From IMG/VR virus record IMGVR_UViG_3300034061_002332, positions 1 through 26,986 of that record: a DNA stretch of 26,986 nucleotides; one strand, given 5' to 3'. This DNA comes from a virus. The notes beneath the pieces are model-generated. The model did no database searches. It was not told the DNA's origin and saw only the letters and a list, made by a program, of their open reading frames with translations. Made by a program: the position numbers and the translations under genes. Below are positions 21,856 to 26,986 of the stretch, in pieces (position 1 is the first letter of the stretch; every line of letters begins with the position of its first letter).

Positions 21856-23601
21856 GTGGATCAAAAAACAGCGGCCTTAGAAGAGCGTCTACGGGCTAGT
21901 TTCCCTTTGTTCCTGTCTCTTGTATGGAAGTCGCTAGACCTGCCTCGTCCAACAAGAGCACAGATCGCCATTGCGGATTATCTTCAAGGCGGCCCAAAGC
22001 GTCTCCAGATCCAAGCATTTCGGGGACTAGGAAAGAGCTGGATTGCTGCTGCCTTTACCCTGTGGATCCTGTTTCGGGACCGCGACAAGAAGATCATGGT
22101 GGTGTCGGCCAGCAAGCAACGTGCCGACGACTTTACCATCTTCTGCCAAAAGTGCCTCATTGAAATCCCCTGGCTCAACCACCTGACCCCACAGGACGAT
22201 GATCAGCGGTGGAGCCGCGTGTCCTTTGATGTTCGTGGGTGTCGGCCTGCTCAGTCTCCATCCGTTAAATCGGTTGGTATTACTGGCCAGCTTACCGGTT
22301 CTCGTGCTGACCTGATCATCTTTGATGACGTGGAAGTCCCAAGCAACTCCGCTACCGACCTTATGCGAGAGAAGCTGCTTCAGCTCGTGACGGAGGGTGA
22401 GTCCGTGCTGACCCCCAAGCAGGACAGCCGTATCGTGTTTCTTGGAACACCACAGACTACTTTTACCATTTACCGGACTCTGCGGGAACGCAACTACCAA
22501 CCAATGGTCTGGCCTGCTCGCTATCCAAAGTCCCTTGTCGGATACGAGGACGTGCTGGCCAAGGACCTCCAAGACGACATCAACCGCGAGGGCCTGGACA
22601 AACTTTCCTGGACTCCAACGGACACTCGCTTTTCGGAAATCAACCTTCTGGAGCGGGAACAAAGCATGAGCCGAAGCAACTTTATGCTTCAGTTTATGCT
22701 GGATACCAGCCTGAGTGACGCCCTCAAGTTCCCCCTAAAGCTGTCGGACTTTTCGGTTCTGCCGCTGGATTCCCAAAAGGGACCATCGGATGTGATCTGG
22801 GGTTCTGACAAGGAGACCCTTCTCGATCTTCCCGCCGTTGCCCTTCCCGGTGATCGGTGGCATAGGCCAAAGGCTGTCTCAGAATACATCCCCTGGAACG
22901 ACACCATCACGGCAGTGGACCCATCCGGTAGGGGCAAGGACGAAACCGTCTCCATCATCCTGTCACAGATCAACGGCTACCTCTTCATCCGAGACATCTT
23001 TGCTACACAGGATGGGTACTCGGATGCTACCCTAAGGGAGATCCTTAGACGCAGCCGCCAATACGGCAGTAAAATGTGTCTCATCGAATCCAACTTTGGT
23101 GACGGGGCGGTGATGGAGTTGATGAAGAAACACGCCCAAGAAATGAAGGTTGGGATGGCGTTTGAGGAGTCACGCGCCACCACAAGAAAGGAAGACCGCA
23201 TCATCGATACCCTGGAGCCGGTCCTTAATCAGCATCGACTGATCATTGACCAACGCCTCATCGATTGGGACTACCGCAGCAACCCCGAACAGGCACCCGA
23301 AGAACGCCTTCCCAGGATGTTGATGTACCAGCTGACCCGCATGTGTCGGGAAAAGGGGGCCGTCCGCCACGACGACAGGATTGACGCACTTGCCCTTGGG
23401 GTTAAACACTTTCAAGATGTCCTTGCTATCTCCGCAAAGGAGGCCCATATCCAAAACAAACGACACGAATGGAACACCATGATTGACGCCTTTTTGGAGC
23501 AGCCGACCCTTGCTACCGACATGCTCGTTGCCGGAAAGAGCTTTTCTGACCTCTCCACGGATGATATTCTCGTGGACTCCAATGTCTATTCCTGGACCTA
23601 G
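21856..23601 (+). CDS. terL: Terminase large subunit (T7 gp19-like packaging ATPase/nuclease)
   Basis: A 581-aa protein, nearly the size of T7 gp19 (586 aa). Walker A AFRGLGKS (residues 54-61) and Walker B LIIFDD (153-158) with Glu160 near it form the ATPase; FLGTPQT (195-201) is the coupling motif. The nuclease half has TAVDPSGRGKDE (Asp355), CLIESNFGDG (Glu411) and HDDRIDALA (Asp506/507, Asp510), the three acidic clusters of the RNase H-like nuclease. It translocates DNA into the prohead and cuts the concatemer. GTG at 21856 is the start; no strong Shine-Dalgarno sequence precedes it. A terminator-like hairpin lies 28 bases upstream, so it may need its own promoter or read-through. A long noncoding block follows. 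Confidence 0.97.
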   Translation: MDQKTAALEERLRASFPLFLSLVWKSLDLPRPTRAQIAIADYLQGGPKRLQIQAFRGLGKSWIAAAFTLWILFRDRDKKIMVVSASKQRADDFTIFCQKCLIEIPWLNHLTPQDDDQRWSRVSFDVRGCRPAQSPSVKSVGITGQLTGSRADLIIFDDVEVPSNSATDLMREKLLQLVTEGESVLTPKQDSRIVFLGTPQTTFTIYRTLRERNYQPMVWPARYPKSLVGYEDVLAKDLQDDINREGLDKLSWTPTDTRFSEINLLEREQSMSRSNFMLQFMLDTSLSDALKFPLKLSDFSVLPLDSQKGPSDVIWGSDKETLLDLPAVALPGDRWHRPKAVSEYIPWNDTITAVDPSGRGKDETVSIILSQINGYLFIRDIFATQDGYSDATLREILRRSRQYGSKMCLIESNFGDGAVMELMKKHAQEMKVGMAFEESRATTRKEDRIIDTLEPVLNQHRLIIDQRLIDWDYRSNPEQAPEERLPRMLMYQLTRMCREKGAVRHDDRIDALALGVKHFQDVLAISAKEAHIQNKRHEWNTMIDAFLEQPTLATDMLVAGKSFSDLSTDDILVDSNVYSWT

Positions 23602-24006: not shown

Positions 24007-24672
24007 ATGCCTCAAACAAAGCTCATCTGGATTACACCGGATGCTGAGTCCATTATTACCTACTGTGCTCGGGTATCCAACCCAAAGAACCAAGAAGCCA
24101 ATGCCAACCCAGAACGGTTGATCGACTACTTGGTTAAGCATAAGCACTGGAGTCCCTTTGAAATAGCGAGTGCCTGCTTTGAGGTGAACACGACCCGTGA
24201 CATCTCGGCACAGATCCTCCGTCATAGGTCGTTCTCCTTCCAGGAGTTCTCGCAGCGGTATGCGGAAGTTCAACTGAGGCCAGAACTTCCCGAAATGCGG
24301 AGGCAAGACACCAAGAACCGCCAGAACAGCTTTGATGACCTACCTCTTGAAGTGTTGGCTGAGTGCGACAAACTAATCGGTCAGGCCTTTGTGACCAGCT
24401 ATCGAGCGTACGATCGCCTCCTTAAACTTGGTGTGGCAAAGGAGTGTGCCAGAAAGGTCCTGCCCATGAACAGTCCTACTCGCCTTTATATGTCTGGGAC
24501 AATCCGCTCGTGGATCCATTACCTTTCGGTGCGTACGGGCGTGGAAACACAACTGGAACATCGACAGATCGCTCAAGAGATTAACACCATTCTCATTAAC
24601 CATCTTCCCTCGTTGACCAATGTCTTTAACTCTTTCTCAGGCCAAGCGTGTGGTGGCTGTGGCTCCCATTGA
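24007..24672 (+). CDS. thyX: FAD-dependent thymidylate synthase
   Basis: The 221-aa protein carries the ThyX motif RHR-x7-S as RHRSFSFQEFS (Arg72 to Ser82), extended by QRY. Flanking motifs also fit: KHWSPFEIA (His and Pro-Phe-Glu) near residue 50, and RTGVETQLEHRQIAQEI near 180. It converts dUMP to dTMP using methylenetetrahydrofolate, FAD and NADPH, supplying thymidine for phage DNA synthesis; ThyX is common in cyanobacteria and their podoviruses. Length is normal for the family. The C-terminus GQACGGCGSH carries two cysteines not needed by the fold. It stands apart from other genes: noncoding sequence precedes it and an overlapping small frame follows. Confidence 0.96.
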   Translation: MPQTKLIWITPDAESIITYCARVSNPKNQEANANPERLIDYLVKHKHWSPFEIASACFEVNTTRDISAQILRHRSFSFQEFSQRYAEVQLRPELPEMRRQDTKNRQNSFDDLPLEVLAECDKLIGQAFVTSYRAYDRLLKLGVAKECARKVLPMNSPTRLYMSGTIRSWIHYLSVRTGVETQLEHRQIAQEINTILINHLPSLTNVFNSFSGQACGGCGSH

Positions 24673-25837: not shown

Positions 25838-26470
25838 ATGACACGGGTCAAACCACGCGCCAACTCTCGCCACATCATCGGGATGCTCGGGCTAGCCTCA
25901 GCTGCCGACATCGCACAAGGTTGCAGCTGGTATCAACGCGCCTATGACATCTCGGTTAGCTTTATCCACGCATACGATGGGCTAACACTTGGGCAGGCCA
26001 TTGGGGTGATAGCAGCACTCAGCCCAAACAATAAATGGGTGCGTAATGTTGCTGATGCTGAGGCTATGATCAAACTCTGGCACGCTGGGGTTGATCCTAG
26101 AACTGTAAAGGTTTGCACCTACAACACCAATAAAGACAAGGCAGCTCGCATTCTTGAGCTGGAATCATCAGACGATGAGACCATCCAGGAAATTCTATCG
26201 GGTCAAAAAGTAGTCGCCTTCTACCGCTGCATCGCAGGCTACCGGGACACGGTGTGTGTTGACGGTCACGCGTTCGCCATCTTTATGGGTGAGCGCATCC
26301 CTACAACGCAAACTCCTAGCATCGGCAAGGCACTCTATGCTGCCATCACCCGCTCCTACATCCTCGCTAGTGAGCGATCCTTTGAAGCCTGCGGCCACCA
26401 CCTAACACCGGCTCAGGTTCAAGCTGTCACTTGGGTTACCTATCGGAGGCTTTTAGGGTATGACAATTGA
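25838..26470 (+). CDS. Divergent HhH-GPD (endonuclease III)-like protein, candidate DNA glycosylase
   Basis: I use ATG 25838 (MTRVKPRANSRHIIGML, 210 aa). A TTG at 25790 would add a 16-residue Thr-rich lead, probably untranslated C/A-rich leader. The order of motifs follows endonuclease III (211 aa): AIGVIAALSPNNKW (55-67) for its 'iavlLSaQ' helix, NKDKAARIL (98-106) for 'nsKAenI', EILSGQKVVAF (118-128) for the HhH with catalytic Lys (here Lys124), then TVCVDGHAFAIFM (138-150) for 'aVDTHifRv' with catalytic Asp (here Asp142), and a last helical part (AQVQAVTWVTYRRL). The hairpin loop is shortened and no iron-sulphur cysteines exist. I recall this as an uncharacterised phage family (DUF7178). 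The fold and activity are inference from motif order. Confidence 0.72.
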   Translation: MTRVKPRANSRHIIGMLGLASAADIAQGCSWYQRAYDISVSFIHAYDGLTLGQAIGVIAALSPNNKWVRNVADAEAMIKLWHAGVDPRTVKVCTYNTNKDKAARILELESSDDETIQEILSGQKVVAFYRCIAGYRDTVCVDGHAFAIFMGERIPTTQTPSIGKALYAAITRSYILASERSFEACGHHLTPAQVQAVTWVTYRRLLGYDN

Positions 26471-26642
26471 GCGTAAGTATTATGTGACGACCGGCACCCG
26501 TACCATGCGGGGAGGTTGGCGGGTGAATGAGGGCAGGGTAATCTACGCTGCCGACTATTCACAAGCCTATCGCATTGCCACCAGATCATGTTATCGTAGC
26601 GAACAAGTTATTACCCTTGAGGAGATCCCGAACCATGACTGA
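26460..26642 (+). CDS. Hypothetical protein, 60 aa
   Basis: MTIERKYYVTTGTRTMRGGW begins a 60-aa product that overlaps the glycosylase-like gene by 11 bases and the next gene by 8. Its pattern YYVTTGT...GGWRV..GRVIYAADYSQAYRIA...YRSEQVITLEE is beta-alpha-beta, a small compact domain. It contains a copy of CACCCGTA (26495-26502) by codon chance. The overlaps suggest one co-translated unit. No family is recognised. Confidence 0.7.
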   Translation: MTIERKYYVTTGTRTMRGGWRVNEGRVIYAADYSQAYRIATRSCYRSEQVITLEEIPNHD

Positions 26643-26986
26643 TTGTTCTACACTGTCTGCTGCGTGGCAGGCTGGCCAGCACACCACACCAACCACGGAG
26701 GAGCGAAACGCCTTTAGGCTCTGGCTTCTGTCTGAGTTCGGCAAGATGCGAGCATCAGGGATTGAACCACTGTTTGTCACCCGTGAGGTTCCAATCGGCG
26801 AGGCAATGGCGGCACTCGATAGGGTAGTGTTGCCGGGTGAGACTCGCTGGCTTCCGGTATCTCGCCTCAACAATGAGCCGAACCCTGATCTTATGTCGAC
26901 ACAACAGAACCTTATGTTCAGGGCAGTTCACGACTGGACCCATTGGAAGTTAGGCGCTGATGCTACATTTGAGGGTGAGTTTGCGG
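26635..26986 (+). CDS. Hypothetical protein with HDWTHW motif, cut by right edge
   Basis: ATG 26635 opens a frame that runs to the window end without a stop (117 full codons). It starts MTDCSTLSAAWQAGQHTTPT, then has a helix NAFRLWLLSEFGKM, a strand-rich middle (LPGETRWLPVSRL) and near the end LMFRAVHDWTHWKLG and FEGEF. The combination FRAVHD..xH......F.GE recurs in an unnamed phage family, as I recall, and the His and Asp could bind metal. The start overlaps the stop of the preceding gene. The rest of the protein lies outside the window. Confidence 0.7.
   Translation, partial: MTDCSTLSAAWQAGQHTTPTTEERNAFRLWLLSEFGKMRASGIEPLFVTREVPIGEAMAALDRVVLPGETRWLPVSRLNNEPNPDLMSTQQNLMFRAVHDWTHWKLGADATFEGEFA
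26684..26698 (+). repeat. 15-base direct repeat, second copy
   Basis: Exact copy of the sequence at 25815-25829, about 870 bases downstream, lying in coding sequence shortly after a gene start. Confidence 0.6.

Follow-up and report, generated by a model that had tools for sequence, protein, structure and literature searches.

A phage protein family of unknown function, DUF7178, is predicted to comprise OGG-like DNA glycosylases and is linked to a Coq4-like protein

Introduction

Among the DNA glycosylases of the HhH-GPD superfamily, the closest described relatives of the phage protein studied here are the 8-oxoguanine glycosylases, above all OGG2 (MjOgg, SsOgg, and Tm1821; Pfam PF22175), which, like the phage protein, are single-domain, all-alpha proteins of about 205 to 215 amino acids. 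A base-reading residue and a stacking aromatic residue lie four positions apart on the last helix of these enzymes, i.e., Q315/F319 in hOGG1, D194/W198 in MjOGG2, and D218/W222 in AGOG, and the canonical hairpin LPGVGxK is common but not universal in the superfamily, AGOG being a member that departs from it (PMC3397491). The base bound by AGOG is sandwiched between F146, located four residues after the catalytic K142, and W212 (PMC9638937).

Here, we describe a gene located close to the end of a 26,986-nucleotide stretch of viral DNA (referred to as the window) that encodes a member of the phage family DUF7178. An initial annotation, made from the sequence, had likened the product to endonuclease III. 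The terminal location of the gene, its linkage in both gene orders to a second gene, and the fusion of both domains in gp205 of Rhodococcus phage E3 are the new observations of this work.

Results

The gene product belongs to a phage-restricted family

The open reading frame extends on the plus strand from an ATG at position 25,838 to a TGA ending at 26,470, and encodes a polypeptide of 210 amino acids. Its length and the motifs singled out in the initial annotation were confirmed, namely LSPNNKW (residues 61–67), NKDKAARIL (98–106), ILSGQKVVAF (119–128, including K124), and VCVDGHAFAI (139–148, including D142). The protein matched Pfam DUF7178 (PF23802; E 7.4e-41, 140.6 bits against a cut-off of 27, profile positions 11–190 of 193) and PHROG 3842 (E 3e-52), both described as being of 'unknown function'. 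The family had been called uncharacterised, and this holds insofar as neither entry gives a function; on the other hand, it has a Pfam number, and scattered annotations ('glycosylase', 'DNA glycosylase', 'N-glycosylase/DNA lyase') already exist on a few of its GenBank relatives. The glycosylase label is hence not new, and a limited literature search retrieved no published test of it and no paper on DUF7178.

Relatives were found by tblastn in 129 phage records, mostly at 30–45% identity. These included Synechococcus and Prochlorococcus podoviruses, roseophages (among them SIO1, gp9), Anabaena phage A-4L, and many phages of Mycobacterium, Gordonia, Streptomyces, Rhodococcus, and Microbacterium; more than 500 viral stretches also carry relatives. 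Comparison with the two nearest relatives compared yielded dN 0.027/dS 0.42 and dN 0.039/dS 0.59, i.e., a dN/dS of about 0.06–0.07, indicating that the protein is under purifying selection. Cellular genomes are nearly devoid of the family, with six loci in about 85,000 species genomes scanned with a profile that would miss distant members, and a match above the cut-off in one of 292 cyanobacteria. DUF7178 is therefore phage-restricted.

The predicted fold and sequence profiles point to 8-oxoguanine glycosylases

An AlphaFold2 model built with 53 viral sequences was all-helical (pLDDT 93.3, pTM 0.88), and the solved structures that matched it best were HhH-GPD glycosylases, as expected from the fold proposed at the outset. 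Ranks 1 to 10 of a Foldseek search against the PDB were all occupied by 8-oxoguanine glycosylase chains (E 0.04–0.2, probability up to 0.99), followed by structures of the queuosine salvage family DUF2419 (E 0.2–0.6, probability 0.35–0.6). All 50 matches listed by VIA-align were HhH-GPD proteins. The Z values were 11.7 for both MjOgg (3knt) and SsOgg (3fhg), 11.3 for Tm1821, 9.4 for endonuclease III (1orn), 8.9 for hOGG1, 8.2–8.4 for Mag2, and 8.1 for AGOG, and even 11.7 is within the range for which the program warns that such values can arise from common helical arrangements. Since the Foldseek E values are weak as well, the fold evidence counts only in combination with that from profiles and motifs.

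HMMER matched the protein to neither the HhH-GPD nor the Ogg-HhH Pfam family, and there was no match to Pfam PF22175 (OGG2) at E ≤ 10. The profiles were then compared by hhalign. An alignment of 21 diverse DUF7178 sequences matched the OGG2 profile, which comprised only seven bacterial PF22175 (Ogg-HhH) proteins of two types (OGG2ab), with P 7e-6 and a score of 44.2 that was reached by none of 150 column shuffles (maximum 19.6; reversed profile 13.6). Type a alone gave P 0.0006 and type b alone P 0.006. With a larger DUF7178 alignment, which comprised 68 mostly close sequences and was more redundant, P for OGG2ab was 0.004; we relied on the 21-sequence set, which had been built before the comparisons, but the choice of alignment matters. 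A profile of Nth, MutY, and OGG1 was matched with P 0.002 (score 29.1, null maximum 20.0). In both alignments, K124 was paired with the catalytic Lys and D142 with the catalytic Asp, and in the one with OGG2, W199 coincided with the last-helix Trp. The initial placement of K124 and D142 at the catalytic sites of endonuclease III was thereby borne out, and the two residues coincide likewise with the OGG2 pair. The match to bacterial OGG1 alone did not rise above the null (2 of 150 shuffles), and a profile relationship with it is not claimed. When hOGG1 and E. coli Nth were used individually, hhalign gave no match because such one-sequence profiles are too thin, richer family profiles being needed.

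Thus, of the likeness to endonuclease III, membership of the HhH-GPD family and the catalytic pair stand, whereas the nearest structural and profile relatives are 8-oxoguanine glycosylases, with OGG2 first. As judged from profiles and model, the DUF7178 protein is predicted to be OGG-like rather than endonuclease III-like.

The putative active site is invariant and combines features of several glycosylases

K124 and D142 were conserved in all 68 distinct DUF7178 sequences, as were W67, N70, A74, F128, A145, Q195, T198, and W199. K124 (codon at 26,207–26,209; this and the following features are on the plus strand) is the predicted catalytic, Schiff base-forming Lys and is aligned to K120 of endonuclease III and the Lys of OGG2, while D142 in the VDGHA segment (26,261–26,263) is the predicted catalytic Asp, aligned to D138 of endonuclease III and the Asp of OGG2. 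F128, at position K+4 (26,219–26,221), is predicted to stack on the base, as does F146 of Pab-AGOG (PMC9638937), and Q195 and W199 in the last helix (Q195 to W199 codons at 26,420–26,434) would, according to the OGG2 alignment, form the base-reading and stacking pair. The LSPNNKW..N segment at the start of a helix (26,018–26,047, residues 61–70) resembles by eye the SSNNN of hOGG1; L61, S62, W67, and N70 never vary in the sequences that cover them, and N64/N65 differ in actinophage members.

The helix-hairpin-helix corresponds to 26,174–26,236 (residues 113–133), where DSSP assigns helices 113–120 and 123–133 in the model. Its hairpin, L-S/N-G-x-K versus the canonical L-P-G-V-G-x-K, is two residues shorter, as seen from a two-residue gap in hhalign, in agreement with the shortening noted initially. 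The absence of an iron-sulphur cluster was corroborated too, as the endonuclease III-type motif C-x6-C-x2-C-x5-C is missing from the protein, whose five Cys residues are at positions 29, 93, 131, 140, and 185.

Compared with endonuclease III, with which it shares the fold and the aligned pair, DUF7178 thus lacks the cluster, has a shortened hairpin, and is less similar to it than to OGG2. From OGG2, with which the Lys/Asp pair and the last-helix Trp align, it differs by a Gln (Q195, 68 of 68) for the Asp located four residues before the Trp, by a Phe in place of the His at K+4, by a shorter hairpin, and by the lack of a C-terminal Lys, the 8-oxoG sensor of OGG2: the window protein ends in LLGYDN, and no conserved Lys is present at the C-termini of the family. 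AGOG has a Phe at Lys+4, a last-helix Trp, and an unusual helix-hairpin-helix as well, although the hairpin of DUF7178 departs from the canonical form by being short, not by reorientation and a lengthened second helix, and Gln again replaces Asp. OGG1, both human and bacterial, shares the last-helix Gln and aromatic residue four apart, VDxH, and, by eye, an SxNN-like segment, but DUF7178 has no counterpart of its N-terminal A-domain.

The Q195/W199 spacing equals that of the last-helix pairs in OGG1, OGG2, and AGOG, and the K124/F128 spacing equals that of K142 and F146 in AGOG. From the motif register and the hhalign alignment, we infer a mixed base pocket with an OGG1-like Gln, an OGG2/AGOG-like Trp, and an AGOG-like Phe. 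Such a pocket without the C-terminal Lys sensor makes a purine-like substrate plausible, and we give a purine slightly less than an even chance; 8-oxoG itself is not assured as the substrate, given the missing sensor and the Gln in the position of the Asp.

The gene tends to lie near the ends of phage genomes

The terminase large subunit gene (21,856–23,601, plus strand), whose product is about 60% identical to T7-like cyanophage terminases, lies about 4 kb upstream of the DUF7178 gene in the window; in 61 of 94 related viral loci, this upstream distance is about 3.9 kb. The gene of the flavin-dependent thymidylate synthase ThyX (24,007–24,672, plus strand) is found about 1.9 kb upstream in 45 of the 94, and about 3.7 kb downstream, 42 of them encode a member of a protein family in which the longest sequence is the S-CBP2 protein annotated as RNA polymerase; these terminase and RNA polymerase spacings derive from cyanophage-like contigs. 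In T7, the genome segment that precedes the RNA polymerase gene enters the cell first. By analogy, the DUF7178 gene would be situated in the first-entering, first-expressed region, early expression being deduced from position, and the protein is probably used at the start of infection. Outside the cyanophages, 24 of the 26 records sampled have the gene within their outer 10% (20% expected); because these records are akin to each other, the nominal p value is not reliable. Microbacterium phage Cece has two equal-scoring copies 168 kb apart, an arrangement resembling a terminal repeat. DNA methyltransferase genes (C5 type PF00145 or phrog_757) are located about 0.9 kb downstream in 22 of the 94 viral loci (L036, L039, L067, L068, L071–L074, L078, L081, L083–L085, L089, L091–L095, L098, L100, and L102).

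Several further features of the neighborhood were seen. ThyX is placed between the terminase and the early genes, and a thymidylate synthase is also found near SIO1 gp9. Between 21,856 and 26,986, the terminase directly precedes a stretch corresponding to the early region of relatives, as would be the case if the window spanned a joined genome end. An HNH endonuclease gene (PF01844; 20,093–20,410) is present upstream of the terminase.

A Coq4-like protein is linked to DUF7178

The DUF7178 gene is followed on the plus strand by a small open reading frame of 60 codons (26,460–26,642), without a convincing Pfam or PHROG family match, and by a partner gene (26,635–26,986, cut by the window end) for a Coq4-like, phrog_3170-like HDxxHx11E protein. 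The motif (H99, D100, H103, and E115), followed by SE...Q, is invariant in 58 of 58 sequences of the partner family. When viral contigs were scanned with this family alone, 47 loci were retrieved, which are mutually related and include some contigs of the DUF7178 scans; 40 of them carry DUF7178, in 39 cases adjacent and on the same strand, with DUF7178 first in 26 and the partner first in 13. Of 108 DUF7178 loci, in turn, 25 had the partner, which is therefore an optional addition.

Both domains occur in a single polypeptide in E3 gp205 (L169:3846-6422), annotated as a 'structural protein', in which the partner domain (residues 173–299) precedes a DUF7178 domain with insertions (392–783). Phage E3 is reportedly the subject of a genome and proteome study by Salifu et al. 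from 2013, cited in PMC7150772. A DUF7178-like domain with insertions is also present in gp102 of Mycobacterium phage Myrna (L170:3794-5704), encoded near the gene of the major head protein. The two proteins score 63 bits (gp205) and 72 bits (gp102), above the DUF7178 cut-off of 27 bits, and by reading they retain K-x3-F (GDKYNAF and GPKISHF), the Asp (TIDTQHM and TIDSHHM), and Q-x3-W (VQAVVW and LQAIVW), respectively.

The similarity of the partner to Coq4 consists of the HDxxHx11E metal motif and an hhalign match with P 2.8e-5 and a score of 39.8 (null maximum 24.8 in 100 shuffles) over a short aligned core of 26–50 columns. Pfam Coq4 gave no match at E ≤ 1, PDB entry 3msq was matched at E 0.1, and structure searches with the predicted model (pLDDT 93.7) gave no clear PDB match. 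Judging from these data, the protein is best called Coq4-like, not Coq4. A selecase or SprT-like metallopeptidase was weakly suggested by Foldseek and VIA-align (Z under 4) and is not claimed. Three unrelated loci, i.e., L024 (Cece gp19), L029 (Sheen gp78), and L106:10792-11280, have an SprT-like protease, either annotated or recognized by eye from HExxH (L106), at most a few kb from DUF7178, which could be due to chance.

Discussion

Computation supports the fold, the position of the catalytic pair, the conservation of residues, the terminal location, and the linkage and fusion with the partner. DUF7178 is very probably an HhH-GPD DNA glycosylase, and the reading we favor with reasonable confidence is that of a small, single-domain, bifunctional DNA N-glycosylase/AP lyase, closest to OGG, which clears a base from incoming phage DNA at the start of infection. 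Once flipped from the DNA, the base would be sandwiched by F128 and W199 while Q195 reads its edge; D142 would activate K124 for attack on C1', releasing the base, and the resulting Schiff base at K124 might permit strand cleavage 3' of the site. In this way, the phage genome may be cleared, before it replicates, of a base, probably a purine, that is damaged or unwanted for another reason. Repair of incoming phage DNA is tentatively regarded as the single most likely role, ahead of attack on the host or counter-defence and of base exchange.

The same enzyme could instead serve early takeover or counter-defence by excising a base from host or host-marked DNA, leaving AP sites and nicks. The terminal, probably earliest-entering location across unrelated phages, the two copies in phage Cece, the distant copy in a protein annotated as structural (E3 gp205), and the methyltransferase genes downstream are consistent with such a role, which we nonetheless consider unlikely, as methyltransferases occur in a minority of loci and repair genes can be early, too. 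Less probable still is a nucleoside or nucleotide N-glycosylase, or a base-exchange enzyme, that would serve DNA modification and not excision. The proposed alpha-glutamyl/putrescinyl-thymine pyrophosphorylases are a base-exchange-type example on this fold. The appearance of DUF2419 (Qng1 queuosine salvage) structures right after the OGGs in Foldseek, the shortening of a hairpin that normally grips the DNA backbone, and a metalloprotein partner suggestive of a multi-step pathway would fit this explanation, whereas the Lys-to-Asp spacing of 18, identical to that of K120 and D138 in endonuclease III, a profile alignment that covers the OGG base-pocket helix, and the VIA-align Z values, highest for DNA glycosylases, argue for excision from DNA.

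The Mag2 structures in the fold list bring to mind a DNA-binding protein of the HhH fold without catalytic activity or with a purely structural role, as presumed for Mag2. Such a protein is nevertheless very improbable, since the whole Lys/Asp/aromatic/Gln constellation is strictly invariant in the 68 sequences and by reading also seems intact in E3 gp205 and Myrna gp102, whose domains are interrupted.

Returning to the repair glycosylase, no element of the system is more surprising, or less explained, than the linked Coq4-like protein. In one branch of the family, to which the window belongs, this metalloprotein may work with the glycosylase. A bolder and rather improbable proposal is that the two, adjacent in either order or fused in a protein annotated as structural, form a two-component phage DNA-base system, where the metalloprotein would alter the base or process the product and the glycosylase would excise or exchange it, acting in the first minutes of infection and in some phages being injected with the genome. 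A paper on polyvalent proteins (PMC5512222) includes no glycosylase domain among its domains.

The combination of an invariant glycosylase site, a terminal location, and linkage or fusion with a Coq4-like protein is unexplained by standard base-excision repair and, if true, would be new in phage biology; the glycosylase and its metal-binding partner can now be tested as a unit. The present proposal provides a testable function for a family whose members occur in well over 100 sequenced phage records and in over 500 viral stretches; marine cyanophages and SIO1, a roseophage with a long history of study, are among the carriers. Relatives in the BTCU-1, Madraxi, and prophiT49-2 records bear labels such as 'repressor', 'glycosyltransferase', and 'endonuclease', which are probably misannotations.
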